From contig CALXBE010000002.1 in NCBI GenBank assembly GCA_944386495.1, positions 103,180-167,179 of the forward strand: DNA of 64,000 nt, written 5' to 3'. The number at the start of each line of letters is the position of its first letter. Positions within the stretch are counted from its first letter, which is position 1. Positions 49,179-64,000 of this stretch are shown in pieces. The notes below the pieces were generated by a model. The model was not told the origin of the DNA. It did not search any database and worked only from the letters and a program-made list of their open reading frames with translations. This DNA comes from an uncultured Gemmiger sp. (GTDB lineage Bacteria > Bacillota > Clostridia > Oscillospirales > Ruminococcaceae). The translations under genes were made by a program, and so were the position numbers.

Positions 49179-49811
49179 TCAGAACCGTTTCCGGACCTCC
49201 ATCACCCGGCCAATTACCCGGATGGGAATTTGGCGGGGGTCGTATACCTGAATCTGATGGATGGGATTGTTGCTCTGGGGCATAAGGGTCACCGTATCTC
49301 CGCTGGAATAAAACCGCTTGACGGTGGCATCGTCCCCGTTTACCAGAACCACGGCGATCTCTCCCTGGTCCACCGCAGACTGCTGGCGGACCACCACCAG
49401 GTCTCCATCCCCGATGCCGGCGGCGTTCATGCTGTCTCCGGACACCCGGAGGGAAAAATAGTTTTCCCCGTCCCGGTAATCGCAGGCAGTGTACCCTTCA
49501 ATATTTTCAGCGGCCAGAATGGGAAGTCCCGCCGACACCCGGCCCAGAATGGGCATTACCCCCGAAGGCTGGTAGGGGGATAGCTGGGGAGCGGGAAGAA
49601 GTTCCTCTCCGCAGAGCTGAACCGGGGTAAGGTCCAGGGCGGAGGCGATGGCACAGAGGGCTAAGGGCTTGGGAGAGGAAAACTGCCCTTTCTCATACCG
49701 CATGATGGTGGAGGGATTCAGCTGTACCCGGGCGGCGACTTCTTTTTGACTGAGCTTCAGCTCTTTGCGGCGGGCAGCGATTCGGCTGCCAATCTCCTGT
49801 GGGGTGAACAT
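49179..49811 (-). CDS. CI/LexA-like phage repressor (HTH_XRE plus S24 peptidase)
   Basis: The 210-residue repressor has an N-terminal XRE helix-turn-helix (about 8-62, LSQKEVAARVQLNPSTIMRYEKG). A C-terminal S24 domain follows with the self-cleavage site in GRVSAGLP (Ala-Gly, near residue 92), nucleophile Ser in SGDSMNAAGIGDGD (near 125) and general base Lys in VKRFY (near 165). RecA-stimulated cleavage after DNA damage is expected to induce the element. It is transcribed leftward from a promoter overlapped by operator O1 and probably regulates itself. Confidence 0.94.
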   Translation of the reverse strand: MFTPQEIGSRIAARRKELKLSQKEVAARVQLNPSTIMRYEKGQFSSPKPLALCAIASALDLTPVQLCGEELLPAPQLSPYQPSGVMPILGRVSAGLPILAAENIEGYTACDYRDGENYFSLRVSGDSMNAAGIGDGDLVVVRQQSAVDQGEIAVVLVNGDDATVKRFYSSGDTVTLMPQSNNPIHQIQVYDPRQIPIRVIGRVMEVRKRF

Positions 49812-49841
49812 AAGCGTACCTCCTGACGGCTTTCTAAGAGA

Positions 49842-49870
49842 AGTATACTACAGAAAATTGCTTTACGCAA
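49842..49870 (-). promoter_or_regulatory. Repressor promoter (PRM-like)
   Basis: Minus-strand TTGCGT and TATACT separated by 17 bases. The -35 lies inside operator O1. Confidence 0.8.
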
Positions 49871-49946
49871 TAAAATTTATTACAAAATTGCGTAAAGCAG
49901 TTGACATTCAAAAAAAGCGTGTTAGAATAAAATTGCGCTACGCAAC
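49857..49946. promoter_or_regulatory. Three-operator repressor binding array O1-O2-O3
   Basis: Three 15-base palindromic sites: ATTGCTTTACGCAAT (49857-49871), ATTGCGTAAAGCAGT (49887-49901) and ATTGCGCTACGCAAC (49932-49946). The consensus is close to ATTGCGTTACGCAAT. Centres are 30 and 45 bases apart, near three and slightly over four helical turns. O1 covers the repressor -35, O2 touches the rightward -35 and O3 covers the rightward start point. Confidence 0.88.
49901..49928 (+). promoter_or_regulatory. Rightward phage promoter (PR-like)
   Basis: TTGACA and TAGAAT separated by 16 bases and flanked by operators O2 and O3. The predicted transcript begins near 49935 with a small hairpin ACAACC / GGTTGT (49945-49959). 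No gene is seen in the leader from 49947 to 50092. Confidence 0.85.
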
Positions 49947-50092
49947 AACCAAAGGTTGTGAAAACGGATTTTCAGTTTCTGAAAAAGAAAGGCTTGGAAG
50001 GGTGAAGTCGGGGCGCAGAAATACAAAAAGGGGGAGGTTCCTCCTGCAATAGAATCATATAAAAGAAAGAGGGCGATAGAACGGACTTATGG

Positions 50093-50236
50093 ATGAATTC
50101 TCCCCGGCCCGGGCTGGGGTACAGCTGCCGGGGAGAGGAATGGCAGTACGGGGAATATCCCCCTGCCTATGCGGGATTTATTCCCGGAGAAGAGGAAACG
50201 GAAGAGGACGAGAGTGAGGTGAGGAACAGATGGTAA
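50093..50236 (+). CDS. Small phage early protein of 47 residues
   Basis: The frame begins ATGAATTCTCCCC and ends at TAA overlapping the start of the next gene (ATGGTAA). The product has an aromatic middle part (EEWQYGEYPPAYAGFIPG) and a strongly acidic tail (EEETEEDESE). The overlap suggests translational coupling, but the ribosome site is weak, so its reality is moderate. It is the first possible gene after the rightward promoter. I recognise no family. Confidence 0.45.
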   Translation: MNSPRPGLGYSCRGEEWQYGEYPPAYAGFIPGEEETEEDESEVRNRW

Positions 50237-50427
50237 AATGCGAACCGGAGACTTTGTGCTGGGGATGCGCCAAGGCCCTGGGAGGGTGCAGCTGGTCCTC
50301 GGGGGAATTCCGGCCGGTGGAGGGGTGGATGGCCCTGCCTACCTGTCAGCTGGACATTACCCCCCAGGGGCTGGTTATGACAGAGTCCTATTTTATATAT
50401 GGATGCCCGGAGTACATTCCGGGCTGA
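50230..50427 (+). CDS. Small cysteine-rich phage protein
   Basis: The 65-residue protein has cysteines in KCEPETLCWGCAK, GGCSW, LPTCQLD and YGCPEY. A CxxC-like CWGC lies near residue 10, which suggests metal binding, probably zinc. GAGGTGAGG lies 7 bases before the ATG, and the gene lies 16 bases before the sigma-like activator gene. Comparable short Cys-rich proteins occur ahead of late activators in clostridial phages. Function unknown. Confidence 0.7.
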   Translation: MVKCEPETLCWGCAKALGGCSWSSGEFRPVEGWMALPTCQLDITPQGLVMTESYFIYGCPEYIPG

Positions 50428-50443
50428 AAGGGGGAGTGAAGTT

Positions 50444-50926
50444 ATGACAGTGACTGAAAAGCAGGCGTGGCTCTGGCGATACCAGAAAGCCCGGCCCAGA
50501 ATGGACCAGATTCAGGGCAAGCTGGCTCAGAAAGGAGTGGCCTGGGAGGAAATGAAGCGGATGGAGCAGCAGCCCTGTCACCCCACCCAGCGCCGTCAGC
50601 TGGAACAGGTGAAGGTCAGAACAGGCCGTGAAATGGAGACCTTAAAGCGAGAACTGGCAAGCCTGGAGGAGGACCGGAGAGAAATCGCCCTGGCCATTGA
50701 AAGGGTGGCGGAAGAACGGTTCCGCCGGCTGCTGGAATACCACTACCTGGAAGGGTGGACCTGGCAGCAGGTGGCCTGCCGGATGGAATACAGCCCCCGA
50801 TATATTTACAAGCTGCATAAACAGGCATTGGAGGCCATAGAATGTAAGGGACGGAAAAGAACCTATCATCTTAAAGCGGAGAAATGCCGGATTCACTGTT
50901 TCCCCCAGAGGGAGGCCAGAGCATGA
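50444..50926 (+). CDS. Sigma-70 region 4-like phage late-gene activator
   Basis: The 160-residue protein has a basic, helical coiled-coil N-terminal half (about 1-95) and a C-terminal helix-turn-helix, LLEYHYLEGWTWQQVACRM followed by EYSPRYIYKLHKQALEAIE (about 104-142). This matches phage DUF1492/ArpU/Xpf-like positive factors that turn on packaging and structural genes. Position directly ahead of the terminase is the same as xpf in PBSX. AAAGGGGGAG precedes the ATG. Its stop overlaps the terminase start (ATGA). Confidence 0.82.
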   Translation: MTVTEKQAWLWRYQKARPRMDQIQGKLAQKGVAWEEMKRMEQQPCHPTQRRQLEQVKVRTGREMETLKRELASLEEDRREIALAIERVAEERFRRLLEYHYLEGWTWQQVACRMEYSPRYIYKLHKQALEAIECKGRKRTYHLKAEKCRIHCFPQREARA

Positions 50927-51270
50927 ACAAAAAGCCGAAACCTATCCCTCCCCAGGCGGATATGCTGGTGGAGCAGGCACTTTTGGAGCGAGCTCTGGGA
51001 TACCGTTACACCGAGGAGACCCGGGAACGAGTGAAGGACCCGGCCACCGGACAGTATGCCATGGTGGTGACCAAGCGGGTCCGGAAACAGATGGCTCCCA
51101 ATACCTCCGCACTTTTCTTCTGGCTGAAAAACCGGCTGCCCCAGCAGTGGGGAAGCCTGATCCAGACAGGACCGCCCCCCGAGCAGGACGGACTTCTGGC
51201 CGCCCTGGACGGCTTTGCCAAGAACGGCTTTGAGGGAGGGGATGATGCCGGAGACTGGGAGGTGGAGTGA
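50923..51270 (+). CDS. Phage terminase small subunit
   Basis: The 115-residue protein contains QALLERALGYRYTEETRERVKDPATGQYAMVVTKRVRKQMAPNTSALFFWLKNR-type sequence, a pattern found in small terminases that pair with PBSX-type large subunits. It binds phage DNA and positions the packaging motor. Start 50923 has GAGGGAGG upstream and overlaps the activator stop; its own stop overlaps the large subunit start. Shorter than XtmA of PBSX, lacking an obvious N-terminal helix-turn-helix. Confidence 0.8.
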   Translation: MNKKPKPIPPQADMLVEQALLERALGYRYTEETRERVKDPATGQYAMVVTKRVRKQMAPNTSALFFWLKNRLPQQWGSLIQTGPPPEQDGLLAALDGFAKNGFEGGDDAGDWEVE

Positions 51271-52517
51271 TGGCAGCCTTTCAGTGGGGACCTCTCAGCA
51301 GGCGGCAGAAGCAGGTGCTTTCCTGGTGGAGGCCGGGCAGTCCGGTGGCCGACTATGACGGTATCATTGCAGACGGGGCCATCCGAAGCGGAAAAACCGT
51401 CTGCATGAGTCTCAGCTTTGTGCTCTGGGCCATGGAAGGCTTTGAAGGGCAGAGTTTTGCCATCTGCGGAAAGACCCTGGGAAGCCTGCGGCGGAATGTG
51501 ATCGCACCTCTGACCAGTATGCTCCAGGGGCGGAATCTGTCGGTGACAGACCATCGTACCGACAACCGGCTGGATATTTCCGGGATGGGAAGGACCAACC
51601 GGTTTTACCTCTTTGGAGGAAAGGACGAGCGGAGCCAGGACTTTATCCAGGGCATCACCCTGGCAGGGGTCTTTTTTGACGAGGTGGCCCTCATGCCCCA
51701 GAGCTTTGTAAGCCAGGCCACTGCCCGGTGCAGCGTGGAGGGAAGCAAGCTCTGGTTCAACTGCAACCCGGACGGCCCCTACCACTGGTTTTACCGGAGC
51801 TGGGTGACCCAGTGCCGCCGCCTGCACCTGGTTTACCTTCACTTTACCATGGAGGATAATCTCTCCCTCAGCGAGGAGGTGAAGGCCCGGTACCGCCGCC
51901 AGTACACAGGGGTATTTTATCGCCGGTACATATTGGGGCAGTGGGCCGCCGCAGAGGGACTGGTCTACCACCACTTTGACCGGGAAAAGAATGTGGTGGC
52001 CCGACTGCCGGACTGCTGTGCCCAGCCCAAGCTGGGAGGGGGACAATACTACATCAGCATTGACTACGGCACCCGGAACCCTTTCAGCGCCGGGCTTTGG
52101 TGTCTCTACGAGGGGACGGCTACCCGGATTCGGGAGTACTACTACGACGGACGAAAAAAGGACCCCCGCACCGACGAGGAACATTACAAGGCTCTGGAAG
52201 AGCTGGCGGGGGAGTACCCGGTGGATAAGCTGGTCATTGACCCCAGCGCCGCCAGCATGATCGAGACCATCCGCCGTCACGGCCGGTTCCGGGTCCGGGC
52301 GGCCCGGAACCAGGTGGCAGAGGGAATCGCCGATGTGACCCGGCTGTTGAGCCAGGGAAAAATCAAAATCCATGAAAGTTGCACCGACTGCCTTCGGGAG
52401 TTTGCCAGCTACCGGTGGGATGATAAAGCCGCCGAGGACCGGGTCATCAAGGAAAACGATCATGCCATGGACGATATGCGGTATTTTGTGAGAACCATTA
52501 TGAGAAAGGGTGGATAA
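51270..52517 (+). CDS. Phage terminase large subunit, PBSX (XtmB) family
   Basis: The 415-residue packaging ATPase-nuclease has the Walker A variant GAIRSGKT near residue 36, Walker B GVFFDEVALM near 135, coupling motif WFNCNPDG near 165 and the RNase H-like nuclease acids in SIDYGTRNPFS (near 260), VIDPSAAS (near 323) and HAMDDMRY (near 400). The start overlaps the previous stop by one base (TGATG); GTG 51267 is an alternative. PBSX-family large terminases usually use headful packaging. Confidence 0.94.
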   Translation: MAAFQWGPLSRRQKQVLSWWRPGSPVADYDGIIADGAIRSGKTVCMSLSFVLWAMEGFEGQSFAICGKTLGSLRRNVIAPLTSMLQGRNLSVTDHRTDNRLDISGMGRTNRFYLFGGKDERSQDFIQGITLAGVFFDEVALMPQSFVSQATARCSVEGSKLWFNCNPDGPYHWFYRSWVTQCRRLHLVYLHFTMEDNLSLSEEVKARYRRQYTGVFYRRYILGQWAAAEGLVYHHFDREKNVVARLPDCCAQPKLGGGQYYISIDYGTRNPFSAGLWCLYEGTATRIREYYYDGRKKDPRTDEEHYKALEELAGEYPVDKLVIDPSAASMIETIRRHGRFRVRAARNQVAEGIADVTRLLSQGKIKIHESCTDCLREFASYRWDDKAAEDRVIKENDHAMDDMRYFVRTIMRKGG

Positions 52518-52520
52518 GGT

Positions 52521-52549
52521 TTGAGCTTTGGGAGTTTTTATGCTACACT
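52521..52549 (+). promoter_or_regulatory. Promoter of the phage DNA methyltransferase gene
   Basis: TTGAGC and TACACT separated by 17 bases, 35 bases before the methyltransferase start and 4 bases after the terminase stop. Confidence 0.65.
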
Positions 52550-52583
52550 GTTGGAGACACCAAAAAGAAGGAGTGGCTTATTC

Positions 52584-53513
52584 ATGCCCAAAGCAAAAGC
52601 CCCCAACAACCGTACCATTGATACCTCCCTGGAGCAGGGGGGAGACTATCTCTCCCGGTGCAGACAGGTTTCTCTCCCGGTTCAGGACATCTCCCAGATG
52701 GAGAACAGCATCATCTGGGGAGATACCTTCAACACCCTGCCTTTGCTCCCGCCTGAGTCGGTGGACCTGATGATCGTGGACCCGCCCTATAATCTGACCA
52801 AGCAGTATGACAGCGGCACCTTCAACCGGCGGAAAGAGGAAGAATACCAAAAATACACCCGCAGCTGGATGGAGCTGGCTGTGCCCCTCCTCAAGACGGG
52901 GGGGACCATCTATGTTTGCTGTGACTGGAAAAGCAGCCTGGTTATTGCCCCGGTGCTCCGGGAGTTCTTTACCCTCCGGAACCGGATTACCTGGCAGAGG
53001 GAAAAAGGCCGGGGGGCCCAGGCCAACTGGAAAAACGGGATGGAGGATATCTGGTTTGCCACCAAGGGAGACGGGTATACCTTCTGTCTGGACCAGGTGA
53101 AGCTCCGCCGAAAGGTGATGGCACCCTACCGTGCAGGGGGAAAGCCCAAGGACTGGGTGGAGGATGAGGAAGGAAATTACCGGGACACCTGCCCCAGCAA
53201 TTTCTGGGACGACATTACGGTGCCTTTCTGGTCCATGCCGGAGAACACCCCACATCCCACCCAGAAGCCGGAAAAGCTGATGGCCAAACTGATTCTGGCC
53301 AGCTCCCGGCCCGGGGAACTGGTCTTTGACCCCTTCCTGGGCAGCGGAACCACCGCCGTTACCGCCAAAAAGCTGGGGCGGAAATACCTGGGCATTGAGG
53401 CCAGCGGTCAATATTGCGTCTGGGCTCAGCAACGGCTGGAAATGGCCGAGACCCAAAAGGAGATTCAGGGTTACCGGAACGGAATCTTCTGGCAGAGAAA
53501 TTCCGGCAAATAA
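52584..53513 (+). CDS. Beta-class DNA methyltransferase (adenine N6 or cytosine N4)
   Basis: The 309-residue protein has motif IV DPPYNL near residue 66 before motif I DPFLGSGTT near 249, with a target recognition region between, which is the beta-class order. DPPY favours adenine N6. HPTQKPEKLMAKLI (motif X) is also present. ATG 52584 has GAAGGAG upstream. It lies between the terminase and portal genes with its own promoter and a strong terminator, and no restriction enzyme is next to it. It may protect phage DNA or mark it for packaging; this is inference. Confidence 0.92.
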   Translation: MPKAKAPNNRTIDTSLEQGGDYLSRCRQVSLPVQDISQMENSIIWGDTFNTLPLLPPESVDLMIVDPPYNLTKQYDSGTFNRRKEEEYQKYTRSWMELAVPLLKTGGTIYVCCDWKSSLVIAPVLREFFTLRNRITWQREKGRGAQANWKNGMEDIWFATKGDGYTFCLDQVKLRRKVMAPYRAGGKPKDWVEDEEGNYRDTCPSNFWDDITVPFWSMPENTPHPTQKPEKLMAKLILASSRPGELVFDPFLGSGTTAVTAKKLGRKYLGIEASGQYCVWAQQRLEMAETQKEIQGYRNGIFWQRNSGK

Positions 53514-53632: not shown

Positions 53633-53721
53633 ATTTGAAAAAAAGAAAAAAGCAGGACAGGTGGGAAAAGGGGCAGCAGAGGGTAGAATGGAGACATCAA
53701 AAAGAAAGGAGCCTGCAAGTT

Positions 53722-55113
53722 TTGGAAGAACAACAGATCAGGGCGGCGGCCAGACCGCCCGGCCCCGCAGAGGGATTTGAGCAAGCCATGGGAGTACGGG
53801 ATATGACCAGCACCGCCATGGCCAGGGCCATCCGGAAATGGTACCGGCTCTATTTCGGGGACCCCTATCCCGGCACTGACCCCAGTCAGCGGCTGGCCTG
53901 TGCCATTGTGGCCAAGCTGGAACGGGTGATTTTCGGGGAATACCGGGCCCAGCTTTCCCAGAGCGCCCAGCCCTTTTACACCCATACTTTGGCAGGGCTG
54001 GAAAGCATCCGCCGTCAGGCAATGCAGCAGCTGCTGGTGGGCGGAGAAGTCCTGCTCAAGCCGGTGCCGGGGGTGGAAGGACTTGACTGGGTGGTGCTGC
54101 CCCGGTGCAACTACATCCCTCTGGGGCGGGACTGCCAGGGAAAAATCCTGGATCTGGGCACGGTGGAACAGCGGGAGGAAGGCGGGTACATTTACCGTCT
54201 GCTGGAACGCAGGACCCTCACCGGTCAAGGGATGATGAAGGTGGAAAACCGACTTTTCCGTTCCCGGGAACGGGGAAGTTACGGGGTACAGGTGGCTCTG
54301 GACACCCTGGACTGTTACCGGGGGTTGGAGCCTCAGTACACCTGCCCTGCTCCCCTCAAGGGGTTGGGAATGGTGCAGCTGAAAAGCCCCCTTCTCAACT
54401 GTGTGGATTTCAGCTGTGAGGGAGTGTCGGTATACGCCCCGGCGGTGGACCTGATTCGGGCGGTGGACCGGAACGAGGCCCAGATGAACAACGAGTTTGA
54501 GAACGGCGCCAGCAGAATCCTGGTCAGCGCCGACCTGCTCACCGTTCGCCGGGACAGCGCCGGGCGTGCAGTCAAGCGGCTGCAGGACACCGTATTCACC
54601 GCCCTGGACGAAGCTCCCGAGGAGGTACCCATCACCGTGTTCAGTCCCCAGCTTCGCCATGAGAGCTATCTTGCCCGTAAGCGGGACGCTTTACGGAGCA
54701 TTGAAAGCCTGATTGGCCTGGCCCGGGGAACTCTCAGTGATGTGGAGCAGACCCAGCGCACCGCCACCGAAATCGCCGACAGCCGGGCAGAGTACGCCCT
54801 GACCGCCCAGGATTACCAGGAAGTCTGGCAGAAAGCCTTGGAGGAAGGGCTCAAGCTGGCCGGATGGCTGGGAAAAGCCTACGGATACACCAGCCAGGAG
54901 TACCGGGAAGGGGAACTGGCGGTGGACTGGGGAAATGGGCTGCTCTACGACCAGGAAAAGGATTGGCAGCAGCTGATCCAGATGGCCGGCAGCGGGGTAC
55001 TCAAGCCCGAGCTGCTGCTGGCCTGGAAGTACGGTCTGCCCCACCAGACCCCCCAACAGCTGGCGGAGATCCGTCAGCGCTTTATGCCTGAACAAAAGGA
55101 GGAGAAAAAATGA
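53722..55113 (+). CDS. Phage portal protein (SPP1 gp6-like)
   Basis: The 463-residue protein shows portal-family features: WYRLYFGDPYPGTD near residue 40, LVGGEVLLKPV near 110, VDLIRAVDRNEAQMNNEFENGASRILVSADLL near 240 and SLIGLARGTLSDVEQTQRTATEI near 330. It forms the dodecamer at the head vertex and passage for DNA. The TTG at 53722 is favoured because AAAGGAG lies about 10 bases upstream; a frame from 53635 gives a lysine-rich extension with no ribosome site. The next gene overlaps by 4 bases. Confidence 0.9.
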   Translation: MEEQQIRAAARPPGPAEGFEQAMGVRDMTSTAMARAIRKWYRLYFGDPYPGTDPSQRLACAIVAKLERVIFGEYRAQLSQSAQPFYTHTLAGLESIRRQAMQQLLVGGEVLLKPVPGVEGLDWVVLPRCNYIPLGRDCQGKILDLGTVEQREEGGYIYRLLERRTLTGQGMMKVENRLFRSRERGSYGVQVALDTLDCYRGLEPQYTCPAPLKGLGMVQLKSPLLNCVDFSCEGVSVYAPAVDLIRAVDRNEAQMNNEFENGASRILVSADLLTVRRDSAGRAVKRLQDTVFTALDEAPEEVPITVFSPQLRHESYLARKRDALRSIESLIGLARGTLSDVEQTQRTATEIADSRAEYALTAQDYQEVWQKALEEGLKLAGWLGKAYGYTSQEYREGELAVDWGNGLLYDQEKDWQQLIQMAGSGVLKPELLLAWKYGLPHQTPQQLAEIRQRFMPEQKEEKK

Positions 55114-55496
55114 CTATGGAAGAAATTCTGGCCGGGCTGGGTATGCCCGTGCCCCAGGAAAAGAAGGAGGCCCTGGCCCAGGCTGTGGCACAGAGTTACA
55201 TGACCCTGGAGGAACACCAGCAGCAGCTTCAGGCCCAGCAGTTCAGCGCTCTGGTGGAAGCCCGGATGGCCGCCGCAGGGGTGCGCAGCCCCAAAGCGGT
55301 GCGGGCTCTGCTGGATATGGAGGCTCTGGCCAAGGAACCTACCGCCGGTGCAGTGGATGCCGCCCTGGCAGCCCTGAAGGTCAGCGATGGTTACCTTTTT
55401 GCAGGGTTCCCGGTTTTTGCGGCAGGCGCCGGAAGCGTGAACCCCGGCACTGCCCCTGATCCCATGGCTGCCATCTACGCCGCAGCCGGTGTCTGA
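55110..55496 (+). CDS. Probable scaffold or head assembly protein
   Basis: The 128-residue protein has a helical Gln/Ala/Glu-rich first half (LAQAVAQSYMTLEEHQQQLQAQQFSAL) and a Gly/Ala/Pro-rich C-terminus. It resembles short forms of phage GP20-like scaffold proteins. Position between portal and major capsid agrees. Its ATG overlaps the portal stop (ATGA). No protease motif is visible, so capsid maturation may not need cleavage. Confidence 0.65.
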   Translation: MTMEEILAGLGMPVPQEKKEALAQAVAQSYMTLEEHQQQLQAQQFSALVEARMAAAGVRSPKAVRALLDMEALAKEPTAGAVDAALAALKVSDGYLFAGFPVFAAGAGSVNPGTAPDPMAAIYAAAGV

Positions 55497-55531: not shown

Positions 55532-56386
55532 ATGGCTAATTCTATTCAGCTTGCACAGCAGTTTGTCCCTGTACTGGACAAGGTATACAAGGCCGCCTGT
55601 CTCACCGCCGTTCTGGACGGCAATTCCGAGCTGGCCAAGCAGGGGGCTACCGCCCATGAGCTGGTCATCCCCACCCTGGAAATGGATGGTCTGGGAGATT
55701 ACAGCCGGAACAGCGGCTACGCAGCCGGGGATGTGACCCTGACCTATCAGACCGTGGAATGCAACTTTGACCGGGGCCGGATGTTCACCGTGGACGCCAT
55801 GGATGATGCGGAATCTGCCGGTATTGCCTTCGGCCAGCTCAGCGGTGAGTTCATCCGGACCAAGGTGGCTCCCGAACTGGATGCCTTCCGGTTTGCCAGC
55901 TACGCTTCCGCCGAGGGAGTATCCACCGCTTCCGGGGCTCTGGCCTCCGGCGCTGATGTGGTGGCTGCCCTCCGCACCGCCGTTACCAAAATGGACGAGG
56001 ACGAGGTAAATCCCGAAAGCCGGTACCTCTTCATCACTCCCACCCTCAAGGGAATGATCGAGGACATGGAGACCACCCAGAGCCGTCAGGTCATGGATGG
56101 CTTTGCCGGGGTGATCTGTGTTCCCCAGAGCCGGTTCTACACCGCCATCGACCAGGCGGCAGACGGTGCAGGCGGCTATTCCAAAGCAGCTGAGGGCAAA
56201 AACATCAACTTTATGATTCTGGAAAAGAGCGCAGTCATCCAGTATCCCAAGCACATTGCCCCCAAAATCGTGGCTCCTGAGGAGAATCCCGACGCCGATG
56301 CCTGGAAGTTTGGCTATCGCCAGGTGGGCATTGCCCAGGTAAGCCCCGCCAAGTCTGCGGGCGTATACATCCACACCGCTGAGTAA
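55532..56386 (+). CDS. Major capsid protein
   Basis: The 284-residue protein (IQLAQQFVPVLDKVYKAACLTAVLD at the start, VPQSRFYTAIDQAADG near residue 200, WKFGYRQVGIAQVSPAKSAGVYIH at the end) matches clostridial HK97-fold capsid proteins in length, position and composition. AAAGGAG precedes the ATG. It is short, with no N-terminal delta domain, in line with a separate scaffold gene. The fold is inferred from context rather than a motif. Confidence 0.85.
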   Translation: MANSIQLAQQFVPVLDKVYKAACLTAVLDGNSELAKQGATAHELVIPTLEMDGLGDYSRNSGYAAGDVTLTYQTVECNFDRGRMFTVDAMDDAESAGIAFGQLSGEFIRTKVAPELDAFRFASYASAEGVSTASGALASGADVVAALRTAVTKMDEDEVNPESRYLFITPTLKGMIEDMETTQSRQVMDGFAGVICVPQSRFYTAIDQAADGAGGYSKAAEGKNINFMILEKSAVIQYPKHIAPKIVAPEENPDADAWKFGYRQVGIAQVSPAKSAGVYIHTAE

Positions 56387-56409
56387 AGAGAGGGGGAGAG
56401 GGCGTGCCC

Positions 56410-56787
56410 ATGATTCCTGATTTTGATTTTTACCAGGAGACCTACCGGGGAAGAAAAATTCCCCAGGAGGAATTCAGCGCCTGGGCTGCCCGGGCTGTGG
56501 GGGTCATTGACCGGTACGAACGGATCTACACGGTGGCTCCCGCAGCCGCCCTTCTCCAGCGGTATTCCCGGGACCAGCTCTATGCCATGGCTTATTGCAG
56601 CGTGGCGGATGTGCTGTATTTTTACGACAAGGCGGCCCAGGCCGGGGAAAGCCAGTCGGCCACTGTGGGTTCCGTAAGCTATTCCACCACCCGGGGGCAG
56701 ATTCCCCCTTCGGTGGCGGTGACCCAGGCCGCAGCCCAGTATGCCGCCGCCGGCCGGTATCTGGACATTTACAGGGGGGCTTGCTGA
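56410..56787 (+). CDS. Head-tail connector (adaptor) protein
   Basis: The 125-residue helical protein (FYQETYRGRKIPQEEFSAWAARAVGVIDRY, then RYSRDQLYAMAYCSVADVLYFYD) occupies the adaptor position straight after the capsid, as gp6-like connectors do. ATG 56410 is preferred over GTG 56404 because GAGAGG is at a better distance. Its stop overlaps the next start (TGATG). Confidence 0.72.
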   Translation: MIPDFDFYQETYRGRKIPQEEFSAWAARAVGVIDRYERIYTVAPAAALLQRYSRDQLYAMAYCSVADVLYFYDKAAQAGESQSATVGSVSYSTTRGQIPPSVAVTQAAAQYAAAGRYLDIYRGAC

Positions 56788-57227: not shown

Positions 57228-57229
57228 GT

Positions 57230-57664
57230 ATGAAGCAGGTGACCCAAGCCCTGATGGAGTGGCTCCGGCAGGCACCCGGTCTGGAAAAGCTGGACAATGA
57301 ACTGATCTGTGATGCTCCCGGAAGTCTGGCCCTGACCCTGAACAGCGTGAAAAAGCTGGAACAGGTCAGGGATATTCTGGGAGAAATACACTTCAAGGCG
57401 GAACTGGAATATTCCCTGAGACTGGTCCTGCCCATGGAACGGGAATGCCCTGCCGGTGTGCAGGAAAACCGGGCGGCTCTGGATGAGACCACCGCCTGGG
57501 TCTGCGCCCGGGGCGGGGCGGAGCTCCCCGATTCCCTGGGCCGGGAGGCCCGGGTGGTCATGGGGTACCCCCGCCTGGAAGAACAGCGGGAGGGTGTGGG
57601 AATTTACAGTGCCTCCGTCCTCCTGACCACCACCTTTGAATTGGAGGAAGATGAATGGAACTGA
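57230..57664 (+). CDS. Tail terminator/minor capsid-like protein
   Basis: The 144-residue protein (LMEWLRQAPGLEKLDNELICDAPGSLALTLNSVKKLEQ, later GVGIYSASVLLTTTFELEEDEWN) has the size and position of tail terminator proteins. The acidic C-terminus overlaps the tail tube start. ATG 57230 follows AAGGAAAGGG; GTG 57224 is also possible. Role is inferred from gene order. Confidence 0.62.
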   Translation: MKQVTQALMEWLRQAPGLEKLDNELICDAPGSLALTLNSVKKLEQVRDILGEIHFKAELEYSLRLVLPMERECPAGVQENRAALDETTAWVCARGGAELPDSLGREARVVMGYPRLEEQREGVGIYSASVLLTTTFELEEDEWN

Positions 57665-58155
57665 ATCTGAAAGAAAACCAAAAGGCCCAGCGCCGGCTGC
57701 TGGCTACCTATGTAAATGTGGGGGAAAGTGATGCTCCCCAGTGGGAAGTGATCGGCGCAGGCGTGGAAGAAAGCACCATCGAATACAACAACGAGGTGAA
57801 TTCCGTCACCGATATTCTGGGAATCACCGAGACCGATATCTCCAAAAACGCTCCCAAGCAGAGCCTGGAGCCCTTTACCATCCGGGGCGGCAGTATGGTT
57901 CACCAGAAGCTGCTGGATATTCTCCGGCGAAATGCCCTCAGCGAACTGAGCCTCTTTGAGGTAATGGTGGTGGAAGGGTACATGGGGGAGGAAGGCAGTC
58001 TGGCCGCAGAGGTACACTCCGGATGCACCATCGAGGTGGAAAGCAAGGGCGGCAGCGGTTCGGTGGATATGCCCATCTCCATCTATTTCAGCAACAACAA
58101 AACCCTGGGTACGGTGGACGGGCTTACCAAGTCTCCCACCTTCACCCCGGCCTAA
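57655..58155 (+). CDS. Major tail tube protein
   Basis: The 166-residue protein has beta-rich tube-like sequence: YNNEVNSVTDILGITETDISKNAPKQSLEPFTIRGGS, which resembles tail tube proteins of clostridial siphoviruses. It lies right before the two chaperone genes and the tape measure, as expected. No sheath gene follows, so the tail is non-contractile. GGAGG lies 7 bases before the start. Confidence 0.84.
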   Translation: MELNLKENQKAQRRLLATYVNVGESDAPQWEVIGAGVEESTIEYNNEVNSVTDILGITETDISKNAPKQSLEPFTIRGGSMVHQKLLDILRRNALSELSLFEVMVVEGYMGEEGSLAAEVHSGCTIEVESKGGSGSVDMPISIYFSNNKTLGTVDGLTKSPTFTPA

Positions 58156-58164
58156 GGAGGCAGC

Positions 58165-58566
58165 ATGAGCGTGAGAGAATTACAGCTGGACACCGGCCTG
58201 GAGGAGATCCAGTTCCGGGATGAGCTGGGCCGTCTTCTGGCAACCGTGTGGTTCAATCCCACCGATATGGGAATCGCTTCCCGGGCCAGGGCGGAGATGG
58301 AAGCTTTGGAGAAGCGTTGGAAGGACAAGAAAGGGGAGGAGCCTGACCTGGCTGTTTTGGAGCAGGAGGTCCGGACTCTCTTTGACAAAATCTTTGCCTG
58401 TCCCTTCTCCGAGACCGTGTTTGAAAACATTTCCCCTCTGGCTCTCATGGAGGATGGCCGCTGTTTTTATGAGAGCCTTCTGGATGCCATGCTGCCGGTG
58501 ATGGAACAGTGCATCCGGGAGAAAGCCCAAAAGAGCCATGAGCACCTGCAGAAATATCTCTCCTGA
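58165..58566 (+). CDS. Tail assembly chaperone (gpG-like)
   Basis: The 133-residue acidic, helical protein (LQLDTGLEEIQFRDELGRLLATVWFNPTDMGIASRARAEMEAL) fits the first tail chaperone between tube and tape measure. AAGGAGG precedes the ATG. Its 3' end overlaps the next gene by 29 bases in a +1 register. A -1 slippery sequence like that of lambda G-GT is not seen. Confidence 0.75.
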   Translation: MSVRELQLDTGLEEIQFRDELGRLLATVWFNPTDMGIASRARAEMEALEKRWKDKKGEEPDLAVLEQEVRTLFDKIFACPFSETVFENISPLALMEDGRCFYESLLDAMLPVMEQCIREKAQKSHEHLQKYLS

Positions 58567-59116
58567 CCAAAAGCTGGAGTGGGGCCTGCCCAGGGCGGTG
58601 AAGGTGGGGGAGGAAGAACTGGAAGCCAACACCGACTACCGGGTCATCCTGACCATCTTTGCCGCCCTTCAGGACCCCCAGCTGACGGAGCGGGAAAAAA
58701 GCTGGGTGGTTCTGAAACGGTTCTACAAAAATCCGGAGAAAATCCGGGATCCGGAAAAGGCTCTTGCTGCCTTTGCAAGTTTTGCAGACTGCGGAGCCGG
58801 GGGCCGTCCTGGTCCCCGGCTCATGGACTGGGAGCAGGATTACCCTATCCTGGCACCGGCCATTGACCGGGTGCTGGGGTATTCCAGCCGCAGCTGTCCT
58901 TATCTGCACTGGTGGGAGTATCTGGGAGCCTTCCGGGAGGTGGGGGACGGACTGTTTGCCCAGGTGGTGGCTATCCGCCGACAAAGGGCTAAAGGGAAAA
59001 AACTTTCCCCTCAGCAGGAGGCTTTTGCCCGTGCCAATGACAATCTTATCCGGCTCAGGCCCAGGCTCAGCCGGGAGGAAGAGGTGTGGATGAGGGAACT
59101 TATGGATTCTGATTAA
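58538..59116 (+). CDS. Gp15-like phage protein (second tail chaperone)
   Basis: The 192-residue protein belongs to the Gp15 type. It has LPRAVKVGEEELEANTDYRVILTIFAALQDPQLTEREK near the start and LMDWEQDYPILAPAIDRVLGYSSRSCPYLHWWEYLGAFREVGDG near residue 100. It lies immediately before the tape measure. The start ATG 58538 is inside the previous gene and has a poor ribosome site, so coupling or a frameshift is possible. Confidence 0.8.
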   Translation: MSTCRNISPDQKLEWGLPRAVKVGEEELEANTDYRVILTIFAALQDPQLTEREKSWVVLKRFYKNPEKIRDPEKALAAFASFADCGAGGRPGPRLMDWEQDYPILAPAIDRVLGYSSRSCPYLHWWEYLGAFREVGDGLFAQVVAIRRQRAKGKKLSPQQEAFARANDNLIRLRPRLSREEEVWMRELMDSD

Positions 59117-59130: not shown

Positions 59131-60396
59131 ATGGCCATTGAAGTACGGATCGACCCGCCTGCCCTGATCACCCAGGCCGACGAGGCGGCCAAGGCGGTGG
59201 ACAGGCTTACCGCCAGTCAGAAAAAGCAGGCCAAGGCAGCCCAGTCTGCGGCCAAAGCCAACGCCCGGAGCCTGGCCTCCTTCGATACCATTGAGAGGCT
59301 CAAGACCCAGAGCGCTTCCTCCGGAGGGGGAAGCAGCAAAGCAAACAAGGAAACGGAGGAAACCATTGAGAAGACCCAGGGCTGGGTGGATTGGCTGGAG
59401 CGGCTTTTGGAAAAGCTGCGAACCATGGCTGCCCAGGTGATTGCTTTCTTTGCTGGCTTGGGCCAGCAGCTTTTTGCCGGTCTGCAAAATGCCTGGGCAG
59501 AATATGGCGCTCCCATTATGGAACAGCTTACTCAGGCGTTTTCCGGCTTGGGAGTGCTGCTCCAGACCCTCCATGACACCATTCTGGTCCCCATTGGGGA
59601 GGCCATTATCCAGGGCCTTACCACCTTCTGGCAGGAACATCTCCTTCCTCTATGGGAGAACCTGACCCTCTTTTTCGGGCAACTTACCCTGACCGTGCTG
59701 GAAGTTTGGAACAGTCTGCTGCTGCCCCTGCTCCAATGGATGGCGGAGACCTTCGGACCTATTATCGGCCAGGTAGGAACTTTTTTGGTGGATACCTTTT
59801 TTGGCGCCCTCTCTGCCCTGACGGACTTTGCAAATCTGGGACTGATTGTTCTGCGCAAGTTCCTGGAACAGGTGCAGATCATTGCCAAAACCCTGGGCAG
59901 TGTCTGGCAGGGGGTAGGCGAGACCCTGAAAGCGGTTTTCCAACAGGTATGGGAATTTATTGTGGGAGCCATCAATGGAATCATCGGAGCGGTAAATGCC
60001 CTGATCCAAGGGGTGACCGCGGCACTGAACCAGATGATTCGGGCCATCAACAGCCTGCATATTGAAATTCCGGATTGGTCCCCCATTTATGGAGGCGAAC
60101 GCTTGGGCTTCAATCTGAGCGAGCTGCCCACCCCCCAGATCCCGTATCTGGCTACCGGCGCAGTGATTCCCGCAAACAGTCCCTTCCTGGCGGTACTGGG
60201 CGACCAAAAACAGGGAGTCAACATTGAAGCTCCCCTTGAAACTATGGTGGAAGCCTTCCGGGCTGCCCAGACGGGACAGAATGTGACCGTTCGGTTTGCA
60301 GGAAATCTGGCTCAGCTGGGGCGGGTGCTTTATCCGGTGCTGGAAAAAGAAGGCAAGCGGTTGGGCACCAGTCTGGCCAAAGGAGGGGCTGTATGA
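59131..60396 (+). CDS. Tape measure protein, short form
   Basis: The 421-residue protein has an N-terminal helical part with Ala/Lys/Gln (about 10-85) and a long amphipathic and hydrophobic region of repeated tryptophan-containing helices (about 85-300). A C-terminal Gly/Pro domain follows (LATGAVIPANSPFLAVLGDQKQGVNIEAPLETMVEAFR) that is common to clostridial tape measures. AAAGGAGAAGG precedes the ATG. At roughly 0.15 nm per residue the tail would be about 60 nm, much shorter than usual siphoviruses. Confidence 0.88.
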   Translation: MAIEVRIDPPALITQADEAAKAVDRLTASQKKQAKAAQSAAKANARSLASFDTIERLKTQSASSGGGSSKANKETEETIEKTQGWVDWLERLLEKLRTMAAQVIAFFAGLGQQLFAGLQNAWAEYGAPIMEQLTQAFSGLGVLLQTLHDTILVPIGEAIIQGLTTFWQEHLLPLWENLTLFFGQLTLTVLEVWNSLLLPLLQWMAETFGPIIGQVGTFLVDTFFGALSALTDFANLGLIVLRKFLEQVQIIAKTLGSVWQGVGETLKAVFQQVWEFIVGAINGIIGAVNALIQGVTAALNQMIRAINSLHIEIPDWSPIYGGERLGFNLSELPTPQIPYLATGAVIPANSPFLAVLGDQKQGVNIEAPLETMVEAFRAAQTGQNVTVRFAGNLAQLGRVLYPVLEKEGKRLGTSLAKGGAV

Positions 60397-60791
60397 AACA
60401 GAATGTAATGATTCTGGACGGCGTGGCCTATGACCTTCAAATCGTCAGTCTCAAGAGGAGCTTTCAGGTGTTGGACACTGACTATTCGGGGCGAGTCATT
60501 GAAGCAGGACAGATGTACCGGGATGTGGTGGGCACTTTTTACAACTATGAGCTGAAGGTGAAGCCCTCCAACCGGGCACCACAGGACTATGACGCCTTTT
60601 ACCAGGCTATCAGCAGTCCCCAGGAAAGCCATATTATCACCCTGCCTTACGGGAGAGAGGGGGCTATTACCCAGAAAATGTATGTGACCGCCGGAAAGGA
60701 TAACCTGGTAAAACAGGAAAACGGAAAGAATTTCTGGGATGGTCTGACCATCAGCTATGTGGCTACCCGGGCAGCCCGGGTGCCGGAATAA
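60393..60791 (+). CDS. Distal tail-type protein
   Basis: The 132-residue protein (ILDGVAYDLQIVSLKRSFQVLDTDYSGRVIEAGQMYRDVVGTFYNYELKV) is beta-rich and located where the distal tail protein is expected, between tape measure and hub. It overlaps the tape measure stop by 4 bases. It is smaller than full-length Dit, so it may be the N-terminal ring domain only. Function inferred from order. Confidence 0.68.
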   Translation: MKQNVMILDGVAYDLQIVSLKRSFQVLDTDYSGRVIEAGQMYRDVVGTFYNYELKVKPSNRAPQDYDAFYQAISSPQESHIITLPYGREGAITQKMYVTAGKDNLVKQENGKNFWDGLTISYVATRAARVPE

Positions 60792-60801
60792 GGGGGAGCG
60801 T

Positions 60802-62451
60802 ATGCCTGAAATTTTATACCGGGATATTCCCCCCGGCGCCAACGAGGGGGCTCAGGCCCAGGGAGAGGCTCAGCCTTATTGGGACAATGCCCTGGACCGG
60901 AAAGAAAAAAGGTCAGGTTATGCGACCCTGGAACCGGGACACTGGAAGCTGGACGGAAGTTACCGGGTTTTATCAGAAAATCCGGAAGGAGAAGGATTTT
61001 GCAGCCGTGTTTGCAGCGATGAAAAGGGAGAGTTTCAGCATCCCGTAGAATTGACGATGATTCTGGACAAAACCTATACGGCGACCAGTCTTGCCCTTGA
61101 ATTTGACAGCAGCGGCCAGGAGTGGTGTACCCGGATGAAGGTGCAATGGTTCCGGAATACACGGCTTCTGACGGAAACTACCGTTTTCCCCGGTCACTGG
61201 AACTGGACCATAGAACAAAATGTAACTGCCTTTGATAAAGTGAAGCTGTTTTTTTATTCCACCAGCAGACCCTTCCGTTTTTTACGGCTGGACCGGCTGA
61301 CTGTTGGCCGGGAGAGAACCTTTGATTCCACCCAGCTGAAAAATCTGGAAACCCATACCCAGGTGGATATCAGCGGTCTGACACTGCCGGGAGGGACCGC
61401 CCGGTTTGAGCTGATTCTGGAGGATGGAAAGCAGCTGATTTTCCAGAAAAACCAACCCCTTCGCATATTCCAGAAGGGGAGCCCGGTGGGGTTTTATTAC
61501 CTGGACCAGGCGGAGAAAACCGGCCCCGGGCAGTACCAGGTGGAATGTGTGGACGGCATCAGCATTCTGGCAGCCAGTCAAACCCTGGGAGGGTTTTACA
61601 GTGAATCTCCCTTTGGGGAAATCGTAGAGGAAATCATCAAGGAGGAGCTGCCTTACCGGATAGCACCGGAACTGAAAGAAGTGGCTCTCTCGGGATGGAT
61701 CGCCGCAGGAACAAAGCGGGATGCCCTGCTTCAGGCAGCCTTTGGAGCCTGTGCACTGGTGACGGTGGATGCGGAGGGAACCATCTGGCTGAAACCTCTC
61801 CCCAAAGCGGCGGACAAAGTCCAGAAAAAGCAGACCATCTTTCAGGGAGGAAGTGTTACCACAAAGAATCCTTATACTCAGGTGGCCCTTACAGCCTGCG
61901 AATATCTGGCGGGCGAAACAGTGGAAGTTTACAGCGGGGACACCCAGCCGGGTGAGCATTTGATCATGCCGGAGGAACCTTGCCTGGAATATGAAATCGC
62001 CGGAGGAAAAATTCTGAGCAGCGGCGCAAACCATCTGATTTTTCAGACTGAAACGCCCGGCAAGGTGGTGATCACCGGCATTAAGCTGGACTGCAAACAG
62101 ACCAGATACCAGACCAGTCTGCCCGATGTGGAGGAAAGCCTGGGGGTCAATCTGCTGGAAGCAGAAGGAACCATGGTATCTCCTGACCGGGCTATGGAAG
62201 TTTTGCAGCGGCTGGTGGAGTATGCAGAACAAACCCAGACGGTGCAGCAGACGGTCCTGCCGGAAAATCTGGCCCCGGGGGATTGTGTGACTACCGAGAA
62301 AGCCTTTGACGGACAGCTGGTGGGATATGTCCTTTCCATGACCACCCATTTTACAGGAAAAGCAGTGGCAGAGCTGGAAATTCTGGGCCGGGATGTGGAG
62401 CTGGAAGCAGACGCGGTTCCCTGCGGCACCATATTTGCGGGGGAGGGATAA
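60802..62451 (+). CDS. Tail tip/hub (Tal-like) structural protein
   Basis: The 549-residue protein likely forms the tail tip. An N-terminal jelly-roll-like part (about 40-185, EWCTRMKVQWFRNTRLLTETTVFPGHWNWT) is followed by a baseplate-hub-like region (about 190-540; VDISGLTLPGGTARFELILEDGK, LKNLETHTQ, YYLDQAEKTGPGQYQVECVDGISILA). GGGGGAG precedes ATG 60802; the longer frame overlaps the previous gene. No enzymatic motif was recognised. Confidence 0.7.
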   Translation: MPEILYRDIPPGANEGAQAQGEAQPYWDNALDRKEKRSGYATLEPGHWKLDGSYRVLSENPEGEGFCSRVCSDEKGEFQHPVELTMILDKTYTATSLALEFDSSGQEWCTRMKVQWFRNTRLLTETTVFPGHWNWTIEQNVTAFDKVKLFFYSTSRPFRFLRLDRLTVGRERTFDSTQLKNLETHTQVDISGLTLPGGTARFELILEDGKQLIFQKNQPLRIFQKGSPVGFYYLDQAEKTGPGQYQVECVDGISILAASQTLGGFYSESPFGEIVEEIIKEELPYRIAPELKEVALSGWIAAGTKRDALLQAAFGACALVTVDAEGTIWLKPLPKAADKVQKKQTIFQGGSVTTKNPYTQVALTACEYLAGETVEVYSGDTQPGEHLIMPEEPCLEYEIAGGKILSSGANHLIFQTETPGKVVITGIKLDCKQTRYQTSLPDVEESLGVNLLEAEGTMVSPDRAMEVLQRLVEYAEQTQTVQQTVLPENLAPGDCVTTEKAFDGQLVGYVLSMTTHFTGKAVAELEILGRDVELEADAVPCGTIFAGEG

Positions 62452-62453
62452 AG

Positions 62454-62864
62454 ATGGAGTTTGTGACCGACAGAAGCGAGAAAGACCTTTTGGAAGGAAC
62501 CTCCAAGGGCTGTTACCAGGCTCAGGACCTCAACCGGGTGGAAACCAATACCAGAGAACTGGCGGAAAAAATCCGGAAGATGGGAGGCACCTGTCCGGAC
62601 ATTGTGTCCAAACTGGACTGGAAGCTGGAGGAACTTTTTTCTCCTGAAACCTGGCCGGTTCAGGAGCAGATGGAACGGTATCTGCAAAATGTGAGAACAG
62701 TGTCGGCCGCCTACGGGCTGGACCCGGTACTGCCTGAGTCCATGGACAGGCTTACTTTGGAAGGGGCCAACAACATTGAAAAAGCGCTCAAATCTCTGGA
62801 GCTTTATATAGAAAATACAGAACAAGCGTTTCTTCCCTGCGGAGAAGCGCAGGCGGGAGGATAA
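62454..62864 (+). CDS. Phage tail region protein, unknown function
   Basis: The 136-residue protein begins MEFVTDRSEKDLLEGTSKGCYQAQDLNRVETNTRELAEKI and has a helical second half. The pattern DLNRVETN followed by ELA is common in clostridial phage tail-fibre accessory proteins. It lies 2 bases after the hub gene and 3 before the next. Probably part of the tip or fibre; no more can be said. Confidence 0.65.
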   Translation: MEFVTDRSEKDLLEGTSKGCYQAQDLNRVETNTRELAEKIRKMGGTCPDIVSKLDWKLEELFSPETWPVQEQMERYLQNVRTVSAAYGLDPVLPESMDRLTLEGANNIEKALKSLELYIENTEQAFLPCGEAQAGG

Positions 62865-62867
62865 AAC

Positions 62868-63368
62868 ATGACTGACCGAAAACCAACCTATCCTCACAGG
62901 GTACAGATCACCAAGGAGGATGGAAGCCAGGAAATCGTGACCTGGGAATATGCGGACAACCCTCTTGTGGAGGGAACCCCTTTGTCCAAAGCCAACCTGC
63001 TGGACGATACCACCGGGGCGCTGATTCTCCCTGAGGTGGAAGACCCTACTGTAAACCAGGCCCTGGCCGCACTGGGAAAAAAGGCAAATGCGCTGGGATC
63101 TGTTACGGTCAGCCTGCCGGCTTCCGGCTGGCAGGGAGGCCAGAGCCCTTACACCCAGCAGGTTCCGGTGGAAGGAATCACGGCGGAGTGGATTCCCGGA
63201 ACTCCCATAGCCGTGCCCGGTGAGCTGGATAATCAGGGCCTGATTGCCCTGCGGGAAGCCTGTGGACATATTGGAAAAATCGAAAGCGGAGAAGGAACAT
63301 TGACTTTCACCTGCCCTGAGGAAAAGCCGCAGGCGGATATGACCCTGAAAATTCCGGGGGTGATGTAA
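62868..63368 (+). CDS. Phage tail fibre/tip protein, short
   Basis: The 166-residue protein contains PHRVQITKEDGSQEIVTWEYADNPLVEGTPLSKANLLDD, a stretch found at the N-terminus of clostridial tail fibre proteins. GTPLSKANLLDD links to the shaft. Its C-terminal domain (about 75-165) is beta-rich and may bind the cell surface. Short for a fibre, so it could be an adapter onto which the next variable protein is placed. Confidence 0.65.
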   Translation: MTDRKPTYPHRVQITKEDGSQEIVTWEYADNPLVEGTPLSKANLLDDTTGALILPEVEDPTVNQALAALGKKANALGSVTVSLPASGWQGGQSPYTQQVPVEGITAEWIPGTPIAVPGELDNQGLIALREACGHIGKIESGEGTLTFTCPEEKPQADMTLKIPGVM

Positions 63369-63370
63369 CT

Positions 63371-63736
63371 ATGGCAGCTACAGTAATTCCATCCGGTGGG
63401 TCATCCAAGCCGATGAGCATGAAAGCGCAAAATACGCAGGGGGTTTCCTGGAACAGTGCAAAGCAAAAAACGGCACAAACATCCTGGACAGCCAATAAGA
63501 ATTGCACCGTTGTAGCAGTTATGGCAATTGAGGGAACCACCAGCTATTTTTCAGAGATCAGAAGAAAATTTACCATAAACAATGTGGAATTTTCGGGGAA
63601 CTATATTGTCAAAGTATCAAAAGAGTATGTCGCTTATGCGGAGGTAAAGAAAGGCGATGTTGTTTCCGTGCTGTATGAAGCAAATTGCGGATCGTCCGCC
63701 GGAACCATAAGAGTGGAAATTCATTCAAACAGTTAA
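63371..63736 (+). CDS. Putative variable tail-tip protein, AT-richer than neighbours
   Basis: The 121-residue protein has a Ser/Thr/Gln/Asn-rich, predicted beta-sandwich sequence (TVVAVMAIEGTTSYFSEIRRKFTINNVEFSGNYIVKVSKEY). Base composition and codon use (many AAA, ATT, GAA and ATA codons) differ from the GC-rich genes on both sides, which suggests recent exchange. A receptor-binding role is a guess from its position. No family recognised. Confidence 0.65.
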   Translation: MAATVIPSGGSSKPMSMKAQNTQGVSWNSAKQKTAQTSWTANKNCTVVAVMAIEGTTSYFSEIRRKFTINNVEFSGNYIVKVSKEYVAYAEVKKGDVVSVLYEANCGSSAGTIRVEIHSNS

Positions 63737-63748
63737 GGGAGGCTTTAT

Positions 63749-64000
63749 GAGACAAGCAAACGGAACCGTTGTTCTTCTCTGGCCGCTGGCAACGCACATC
63801 CTTACCCAGGGAATGTACTCATCCTCCGGAGTATGGCACGGCGCCATTGACATGCGCTGCACCTGGGACGGCACCACCAGACAGCCGGTCTATGCGTCAG
63901 AGGACGGGACGGTAAACTGGGTCCAGACCTGGGACGGAAAGTCCACCGCAGGCAATCAGTCCTACGGCAATGCGGTGAAAATCCGCCATGCAGACTACAG
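63749..64000 (+). CDS. M23-family (LytM-like) peptidase, cut by window end
   Basis: The first 84 codons are visible. The sequence has the M23 zinc-binding pattern in GVWHGAIDM (HxxxD), then VYASEDGTVNWVQTW and YGNAVKIRHADY, where the C-terminal HxH would follow outside the window. AAGGGAGG precedes the ATG. It probably cuts peptidoglycan peptides, as endolysin or tail-associated enzyme. No signal peptide is seen. Because the 3' end is missing, its binding domains are unknown. Confidence 0.82.

Follow-up and report, generated by a model that had tools for sequence, protein, structure and literature searches.

Particles of gene transfer agents (GTAs) carry random host DNA, too little of it to hold the whole cluster that encodes them, and pass this DNA on to recipient cells. 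RcGTA is made from a head-tail cluster of ~15 kb and has a short siphovirus-like tail; PBSX packs 13-kb pieces of host DNA and kills relatives. To our knowledge, few GTAs have been found outside the Alphaproteobacteria. Here we describe a phage-like locus of ~16 kb next to the host gene rarA in an uncultured Gemmiger sp. of the Ruminococcaceae, at the right end of the stretch of 64,000 nucleotides that we analysed and call the window (contig CALXBE010000002.1, positions 103,180 to 167,179; G000:C2:103180-167179). We hold with good confidence that this locus is a domesticated phage remnant, inherited by the host genus, that would make DNA-filled tailed particles. Genome comparison gives good support to a particle locus that is inherited, apparently functional and without integrase, and it strongly suggests host-DNA packaging. 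We think it probable that the particles deliver DNA, i.e. that they are a GTA, and doubtful that they only kill relatives.

As far as set out in the part of PMC8347963 used here, PBSX-like loci consist of a repressor, small genes, a homologue of the sigma-like Xpf, structural genes and lysis genes, and they are conserved between species except for a variable tail-fibre region. From the same part and from general knowledge of PBSX, the window locus shares the order repressor, activator, terminase, structural and lysis genes, again without an integrase. However, PBSX (~33 kb) and the locus of the B. pumilus group (28.7 kb) differ in size from the ~16 kb found here, and the B. pumilus locus has a tail sheath and baseplate J, whereas our locus has a short siphovirus-type tail (PMC8347963, same part). 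Scans of 20 window proteins, and of the right end of the element in a sister species, matched neither a sheath nor a baseplate J family, which speaks against a contractile tail. Because of the missing sheath match the locus, judged by its genes, is not PBSX proper; likeness and difference are drawn from descriptions of gene layout. Of the terms PBSX-like and GTA-like, which an earlier note on this DNA had used, the former suits the regulatory layout only. The note had also held that such elements are poorly described in gut Clostridia, which is outdated since the publication in 2026 of FpGTA, a GTA of Faecalibacterium (PMC12946183, in the part used here). By that part of the paper, FpGTA resembles the window locus in its host group (gut Clostridia), in a small terminase (TerS) without an obvious DNA-binding domain and in having a large terminase (TerL), portal, scaffold and capsid; its main text as available does not use the word integrase, and none was found in the window locus. 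FpGTA is podovirus-like and split into two operons of 10.5 and 5.5 kb (PMC12946183, same part). Unlike FpGTA, as this description gives it, ours is a single locus with a tape measure, a likely tail tube and its own repressor. The same text reports GTA-like packaging of host DNA in Onthomonas (Oscillospiraceae), and a strong candidate operon in one of four metagenome-assembled genomes (MAGs) searched, a Faecalibacterium (PMC12946183). The TerS of RcGTA (Rhodobacter capsulatus), like that of the window locus, has no N-terminal helix-turn-helix (HTH) according to the section of PMC6854486 consulted. GTAs tend toward several encoding loci, by the portion of PMC11841831 at hand; unlike those, the window locus holds repressor, activator and lysis genes together and has a DNA methyltransferase amid the packaging genes. 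Among the matches listed from the open-licence PMC literature, none is by title and abstract a siphovirus-type GTA of this bacterial group.

The window's genome (G000) is a draft of 1.89 Mb in 26 contigs (81% complete), and the comparison set for its genus comprises three species (G000, G001 and G002), all MAGs of 77-84% completeness. In the sister species G002 the entire locus lies on one contig (CALXGR010000026.1, 27,665 bases). In G001 it is in parts, with rarA to TerL on C216 and the remainder up to the lysin on C206 and C211; the succession of these contigs follows from split genes, and genes at contig ends are seen piecewise. Families were assigned with Pfam and PHROG profiles for the 20 window proteins, and host genes were named by NCBIfam. 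Read from left to right, the locus encodes an S24 repressor, small proteins, a sigma-like activator, TerS, TerL, a methyltransferase, head genes, a short siphovirus-type tail, an endolysin and a holin, 15.9 kb from repressor to holin in G002. It is a head, tail, packaging and lysis cluster of phage derivation, as expected of a GTA, and its GC content (56.8%) is close to that of window positions 1-48883 (56.1%). The gene order given in the earlier note up to the structural genes holds, with its coordinates, and so does the absence of integrase, excisionase and replication genes between rarA and the packaging genes: from the end of rarA (48883) to terS no scanned product of an open reading frame (ORF) resembles any of these proteins.

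The window ends with its contig (G000:C2, 167179 bases), and the element is cut there inside the M23 lysin gene. We found the missing right part in the terminal stretch of another G000 contig, C9: the 3' part of the lysin gene, the holin, and then the host genes h221-MATE-aminotransferase-tsaD-rimI-polA. This end of C9 is 95% identical to G002, and ~31 lysin codons are missing between the ends of C2 and C9. In G002 the tail genes are followed by a 290-aa M23 endolysin, a holin (Phage_holin_4_1, 1.5e-31), a 220-aa gene without family (h221), a MATE transporter, an aminotransferase, tsaD, rimI and polA. A look at the right end for integrase, lysis genes and attachment (att) repeats, as the earlier note had proposed, thus gives lysis genes and then host genes in both genomes. 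No integrase, excisionase, recombination or replication genes were found between rarA and the right host operon in G002 and G000, and the Phage_integrase and Recombinase profiles have no match on the element's contigs in the three species. The longest direct word common to both flanks measures 8 bp in G002, 10 bp in G000 and 8 bp in G001, lengths equalled in 90 of 100, 14 of 100 and 165 of 200 shuffles, respectively, i.e. no excess over chance. Integrase, replication genes and att repeats, the hallmarks of an ordinary temperate prophage, were not found at the locus. An empty site could not be defined because the gene order to the right of rarA differs in sister genera: none of 20 stretches downstream of rarA in other genera (one of just 4.3 kb) contains the element, nor do these stretches have the right-flank genes of G002 beside rarA, save two weak paralogue matches (27-28% identity).

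The capsid gene is present in all three genomes of the genus, and in all three the left end of the locus adjoins rarA; in G001, C216 runs from rarA to repressor, activator, TerS and TerL. G002 and the window are 93.5% identical over 3.4 kb on the glyA-rarA side and 92.9% identical over 14.5 kb of the element. We compared nonsynonymous (dN) and synonymous (dS) divergence by the Nei-Gojobori method, and groups of genes by the Mann-Whitney test. Between G000 and G002, dS values are 0.09-0.33 and dN/dS ratios 0-0.085 in the 12 genes that run from terS to gp15; dS of eight flanking host genes is 0.10-0.34 (p 0.57 versus the head genes). Over 19 window genes plus the lysin (175 codons) and the holin, dN/dS is 0-0.15, and not a single amino acid differs in TerL (416 codons), TerS or the head-tail adaptor. 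Repressor, activator and holin (dS 0.40, 0.27 and 0.15) were placed in neither Mann-Whitney group. The six alignable genes from tape measure to lysin have higher dS (0.35-0.70) than head and host genes (0.09-0.34; p 8.7e-6). For the pair G000 and G001, the element has dN/dS ratios of 0.06-0.36, and rarA has 0.05. A frame check of the aligned genes in G002 and G001 gave no stop or frame break other than a stop at residue 19 of the G002 portal frame as listed, upstream of the phrog_533 match. Because of this stop, and because the family match begins only at residue 54, we doubt the listed start; the true one probably lies farther downstream, e.g. at the ATG at residue 52 (53788).

In a capsid tree of 74 rows the three species form a clade (support 100/100, stem 0.46) with G001 outside G000 and G002, a branching that agrees with the rarA identities (94% and 97%), and no viral contig or prophage falls inside this clade. 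Identity to the closest viral capsid found is 65%, to the closest capsid of a named phage 58%, and to the closest TerL among the best 80 viral ones 58%. Taken together, these comparisons argue for vertical inheritance under purifying selection in three species, as in GTAs, with a deviating right flank in G001. Vertical inheritance at rarA, for which the earlier note had proposed to compare relatives, is borne out by the left end and by the host-like divergence, but not by the right end of G001.

The second line of evidence is the small terminase, which strengthens the likeness to a GTA seen earlier. In ordinary relatives the conserved domain of TerS is preceded by an N-terminal HTH of ~60 residues, whereas in G000, G001 and G002 merely ~11-24 residues stand before it, none of them HTH-like. 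By inspection and family models, TerS thus appears to have no N-terminal DNA-binding domain in three of three species, as expected of a GTA. TerS was aligned with 31 homologues. Of the 32 compared, which cover loci from 30 of 38 matching places plus two others, 10 have such a clipped form: three in the window's genus, five in genus g122 and two in genus g32. Among the 22 with a longer N-terminus, 20 show an HTH by eye; it is not evident in the 71-residue N-termini of G229 and G360. In named phages the HTH is in frame in eight of eight (hand-picked from 309 matching records). None of the 10 HTH-less TerS genes has a Phage_integrase or Recombinase match within 20 kb on its contig, among the matches listed (four of the ten contigs are under 11 kb; the nearest matches are at 23 kb in G299 and 101 kb in G351). 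For the long forms, at least 7 of 22 have an integrase match within 30 kb (G076, G071, G162, G356, G229, G203 and G012), with G012 searched for one of the two integrase families and the genome of L018 for neither. The link between HTH loss and distance from an integrase is suggestive. As a side observation, the annotated TerS start of Flavonifractor phage Chenonceau (L317; ON453904 19771-20118) lies too far downstream, and the frame upstream of it encodes an HTH.

The control region and the conserved motifs fit a locus that would still work. Between the repressor and the first small gene, putative operators flank a promoter (TTGACA-16-TAGAAT at 49901-49928); their exact words do not occur elsewhere on the + strand of the window. 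Promoter and first two sites are nearly identical in the three species, and the third is kept in G002 and displaced in G001. We infer that the repressor binds here. Aligned to LexA chains, it has the Ala-Gly site, the Ser and the Lys all in place, presumably with the roles that they have in LexA. TerL matches PDB 5oe8, a solved phage terminase, over its full length (4.4e-148) with the motifs aligned throughout, and we take these to have the same roles. The only SOS box (CGAAC-N4-GTTCG-like) in the window has one mismatch and lies far off at 23048; induction would proceed through cleavage of the repressor rather than through LexA. In the course of events we propose, the S24 repressor would keep one rightward promoter closed until DNA damage leads to its cleavage and the genes for the small proteins and the activator are transcribed. 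The activator would then switch on the late operon. As TerS has no site-recognising domain, TerL is expected to pack host DNA without site choice, filling heads without favouring the element; short non-contractile tails would be joined to these heads, and endolysin and holin would lyse the cell. All features are collected in Table 1.

Table 1. Features of the locus in window coordinates, with family matches and E-values
Feature	Position	Strand	Evidence or remark
rarA, left host neighbour, outside the element	47630..48883	+	417 aa; adjoins the locus in G000, G001 and G002
59-aa protein downstream of the repressor	48938..49117	-	100% identical in G002, 87% over 52 aa in G001; no match in Pfam and PHROG scans
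S24/LexA-type repressor with HTH	49179..49811	-	Peptidase_S24 2.4e-26, HTH_3 8.9e-11
Operator-like sites	49857..49945	.	49858 TTGCTTTACGCAA; 49888 near reverse copy; 49933 TTGCGCTACGCAA
47-aa small protein	50093..50236	+	96% in G002, 56% over 36 aa in G001
65-aa cysteine-rich small protein	50230..50427	+	98% in G002, 78% in G001; no family match in Pfam and PHROG scans
Sigma-70 region-4-like late activator	50447..50926	+	phrog_36 3e-13; Sigma70_r4_2 5.6e-5, slightly below the Pfam cut-off
TerS, 115 aa, without N-terminal HTH domain	50923..51270	+	phrog_309, model positions 194-250 of 319 only
TerL	51267..52517	+	phrog_2 1e-54; dN 0 versus G002
N6/N4 DNA methyltransferase	52521..53513	+	Pfam 3.1e-43; found in all three species
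Portal protein, listed frame	53635..55113	+	phrog_533 9.9e-55 from residue 54
Scaffold protein	55110..55496	+	Phage_scaffold 1.2e-12
Major capsid protein	55532..56386	+	phrog_422 1.5e-67
Head-tail adaptor	56404..56787	+	phrog_541 1.2e-11
Two neck/tail-completion genes (by position)	56787-57227, 57224-57664	+	homologues in matching order in some relatives; no family match in Pfam and PHROG scans
Tail tube protein (likely)	57655..58155	+	phrog_3099 1.3e-23, function unnamed
Tail assembly pair	58165-58566; 58538-59116 (Gp15-like)	+	phrog_11299; Phage_Gp15 4.8e-12
Tape measure protein, 421 aa	59131..60396	+	phrog_1535 2.8e-27
Distal tail protein (by position)	60393-60791	+	phrog_1194 5.3e-18, function unnamed
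Tail-associated protein	60802-62451	+	phrog_13879 2.5e-44, function unnamed
Tail-tip genes	62454-62864, 62868-63368, 63371-63736	+	raised dS; the last without counterpart in G002 or G001
M23 endolysin, truncated where the contig stops	63747..63998	+	M23 5.6e-23 on the G002 copy

Several observations weigh against a domesticated, inherited particle locus. It is known from its genes, and the genus is represented by three incomplete MAGs, so that trans-acting loci may escape notice. G001 does not share the right host flank of G000 and G002: its lysin is followed by a 103-aa gene (phrog_4105) and an unrelated 95-aa holin (phrog_1129), and the G002-type holin and h221 were not found in that genome. 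A tRNA-Lys gene stands ~130 bp past this holin set (L033 1-900, C211), just before the contig end, and tRNA genes are frequent phage attachment sites; no repeat connects it with the left end of the locus. By the look of its contigs, the right end of G001 is either a rearrangement or a different right boundary. It makes a fully fixed site less certain and slightly lowered our confidence in the reading. The tail-tip genes, moreover, are swapped or fast-evolving, as in active phages. Finally, TerS-like domains without HTH occur in other viral contigs as well: at 80 viral loci with a related TerL, the upstream ORF has a TerS domain in three and is HTH-less in two of them (L254 and L263), and L254 is plainly an ordinary phage with other early phage genes, in which another small ORF adjoins TerL. 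HTH loss as an infallible mark was ruled out by these two loci.

How far do other explanations account for the same genes? In a PBSX-like killer, the host DNA packed would go undelivered and related strains would be killed by the tail, the locus being kept by selection for warfare. Its regulatory order would suit the locus, as would the raised dS of the tail-tip genes and a last tail-tip gene that is wholly different between species, reminiscent of the variable fibre region of PBSX-like loci (PMC8347963, in the part used here); however, variable tail tips fit a DNA-delivering particle equally well, and with no sheath or baseplate J family matched in the 20 scanned window proteins a contractile puncturing device seems to be missing, so we regard a mere killer as unlikely. 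A working prophage or satellite could also borrow its integrase and replication functions, either from other loci of the genome or from a helper phage. In favour of this, none of the genomes is complete, tyrosine integrase matches (two, on C10) and Recombinase matches (two, on C7 and C22) exist elsewhere in G000, the exchange of tail tips and holins requires contact with other phages, and there is the tRNA gene in G001. Against this stand the one left neighbour and host-like divergence across three species, ends without a repeat, and a clipped TerS that would not favour the element's own DNA, which together make such a prophage or satellite very unlikely.

Chance survival of structural genes in a decaying prophage that has lost its early half is highly improbable. 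The element does appear to derive from a siphophage of the kind of Ruminococcus phage RG-TP1 (PQ571303), which shares the PHROG families of portal (533), capsid (422, 58% identity), adaptor (541) and TerS (309). RG-TP1 differs in being a 36-kb inducible temperate phage with an integrase-like gene, primase/helicase, Sak4 and an HTH-bearing TerS. Decay, however, is hard to reconcile with the dN/dS ratios in both species pairs, with aligned genes that are intact in G002 and G001 (the sole G002 stop lies upstream of the likely portal start), or with a lysin and a holin retained in all three species, even if the holin of G001 is of a different kind. Two features that the earlier note had taken as signs of reduction carry little weight: the tape measure is short but not unusual (419 aa in G020, 536 aa in G351 and, by coordinates, 618 aa in RG-TP1), and the capsid without delta domain is accompanied by a separate scaffold gene here as well as in RG-TP1.

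Capsid homologues (E 1e-3 or better) occur in 54 of 197 genomes of the family, in varied contexts and with two copies in several genomes. We dropped them as proof of a wider element family, as these contexts and double copies mark most of them as probably ordinary prophages. Outside the genus no capsid among the matches listed is near rarA (nearest 43 kb, G141, 39% identity). In genus g32, G351 (L227/L228) has a complete element of ~15.6 kb with a capsid 62% identical to ours, a TerL not matched by the window's TerL, a TerS of 105 aa without HTH and no integrase nearby; it lies between hemW and a DEAD-box helicase gene, with hrcA and dnaK beyond, and the left part of the element is found at a different host site in G310. 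In genus g122 we found an integrase-less set of ~8.5 kb, whole in G340 (L220/L221), consisting of a TerS of ~94-113 aa, TerL, portal, a capsid of another PHROG family and, by eye, holin and lysozyme; no tape measure was seen, and the set may be podovirus-like. It stands after recX in four of the five species where its TerS was found: it follows mnmG-rsmG-recX in G340, G198 (L224) and G252 (L219), the last two contigs being cut early, and in G299 (L222/L223) 2.6 kb of other genes separate it from recX and a 17-kb insert lies past TerL. In G123 it is at another site with a shorter insert. The g32 and g122 loci look like separate domestications. It is possible, and we propose it tentatively, that the window locus is a new single-locus, repressor-controlled GTA of siphovirus type, and that domestication happened independently three or more times in one family (the rarA, recX and hemW loci), each locus having lost the DNA-binding domain of TerS and having no integrase beside it. 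If so, such loci could explain GTA-like packaging in gut Oscillospiraceae and Ruminococcaceae that had yielded no operon. A locus this compact, with a repressor of its own, should lend itself to induction and knockout, and chromosomal DNA exchange by domesticated particles in gut Clostridia becomes directly testable. The clipped TerS also serves as a search key: within one family it led, in three genera, to loci that have no integrase close by.

Some minor observations concern single genes. For the likely tube protein an AlphaFold model (predicted local distance difference test, pLDDT, 70.3) gave mostly tail-tube and Hcp chains as best matches, all weak (best E 0.015); a model of the tail-associated protein was discarded for its mean pLDDT of 46.7. 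Comparison of window positions 60393-63998 with G002 (L030) marks the tail tip as a hotspot of recombination or diversification for target recognition, and the head genes co-diverge with the host. The methyltransferase gene lies between TerL and portal in three of three species and is under purifying selection. Directly upstream of the gene for the 59-aa protein, on the - strand, a stretch resembling a ribosome-binding site is visible by eye; this protein is possibly part of the repressor switch. The HTH-less packaging and lysis cluster of g122 resembles FpGTA as the latter is described. On a 20-kb contig of G020 (L083/L084), a repressor stands directly before an HTH-bearing TerS, with a 419-aa tape measure and, on the left side, a reverse-transcriptase-like gene recognised by eye; this could be a further reduced element with a diversity-generating system.

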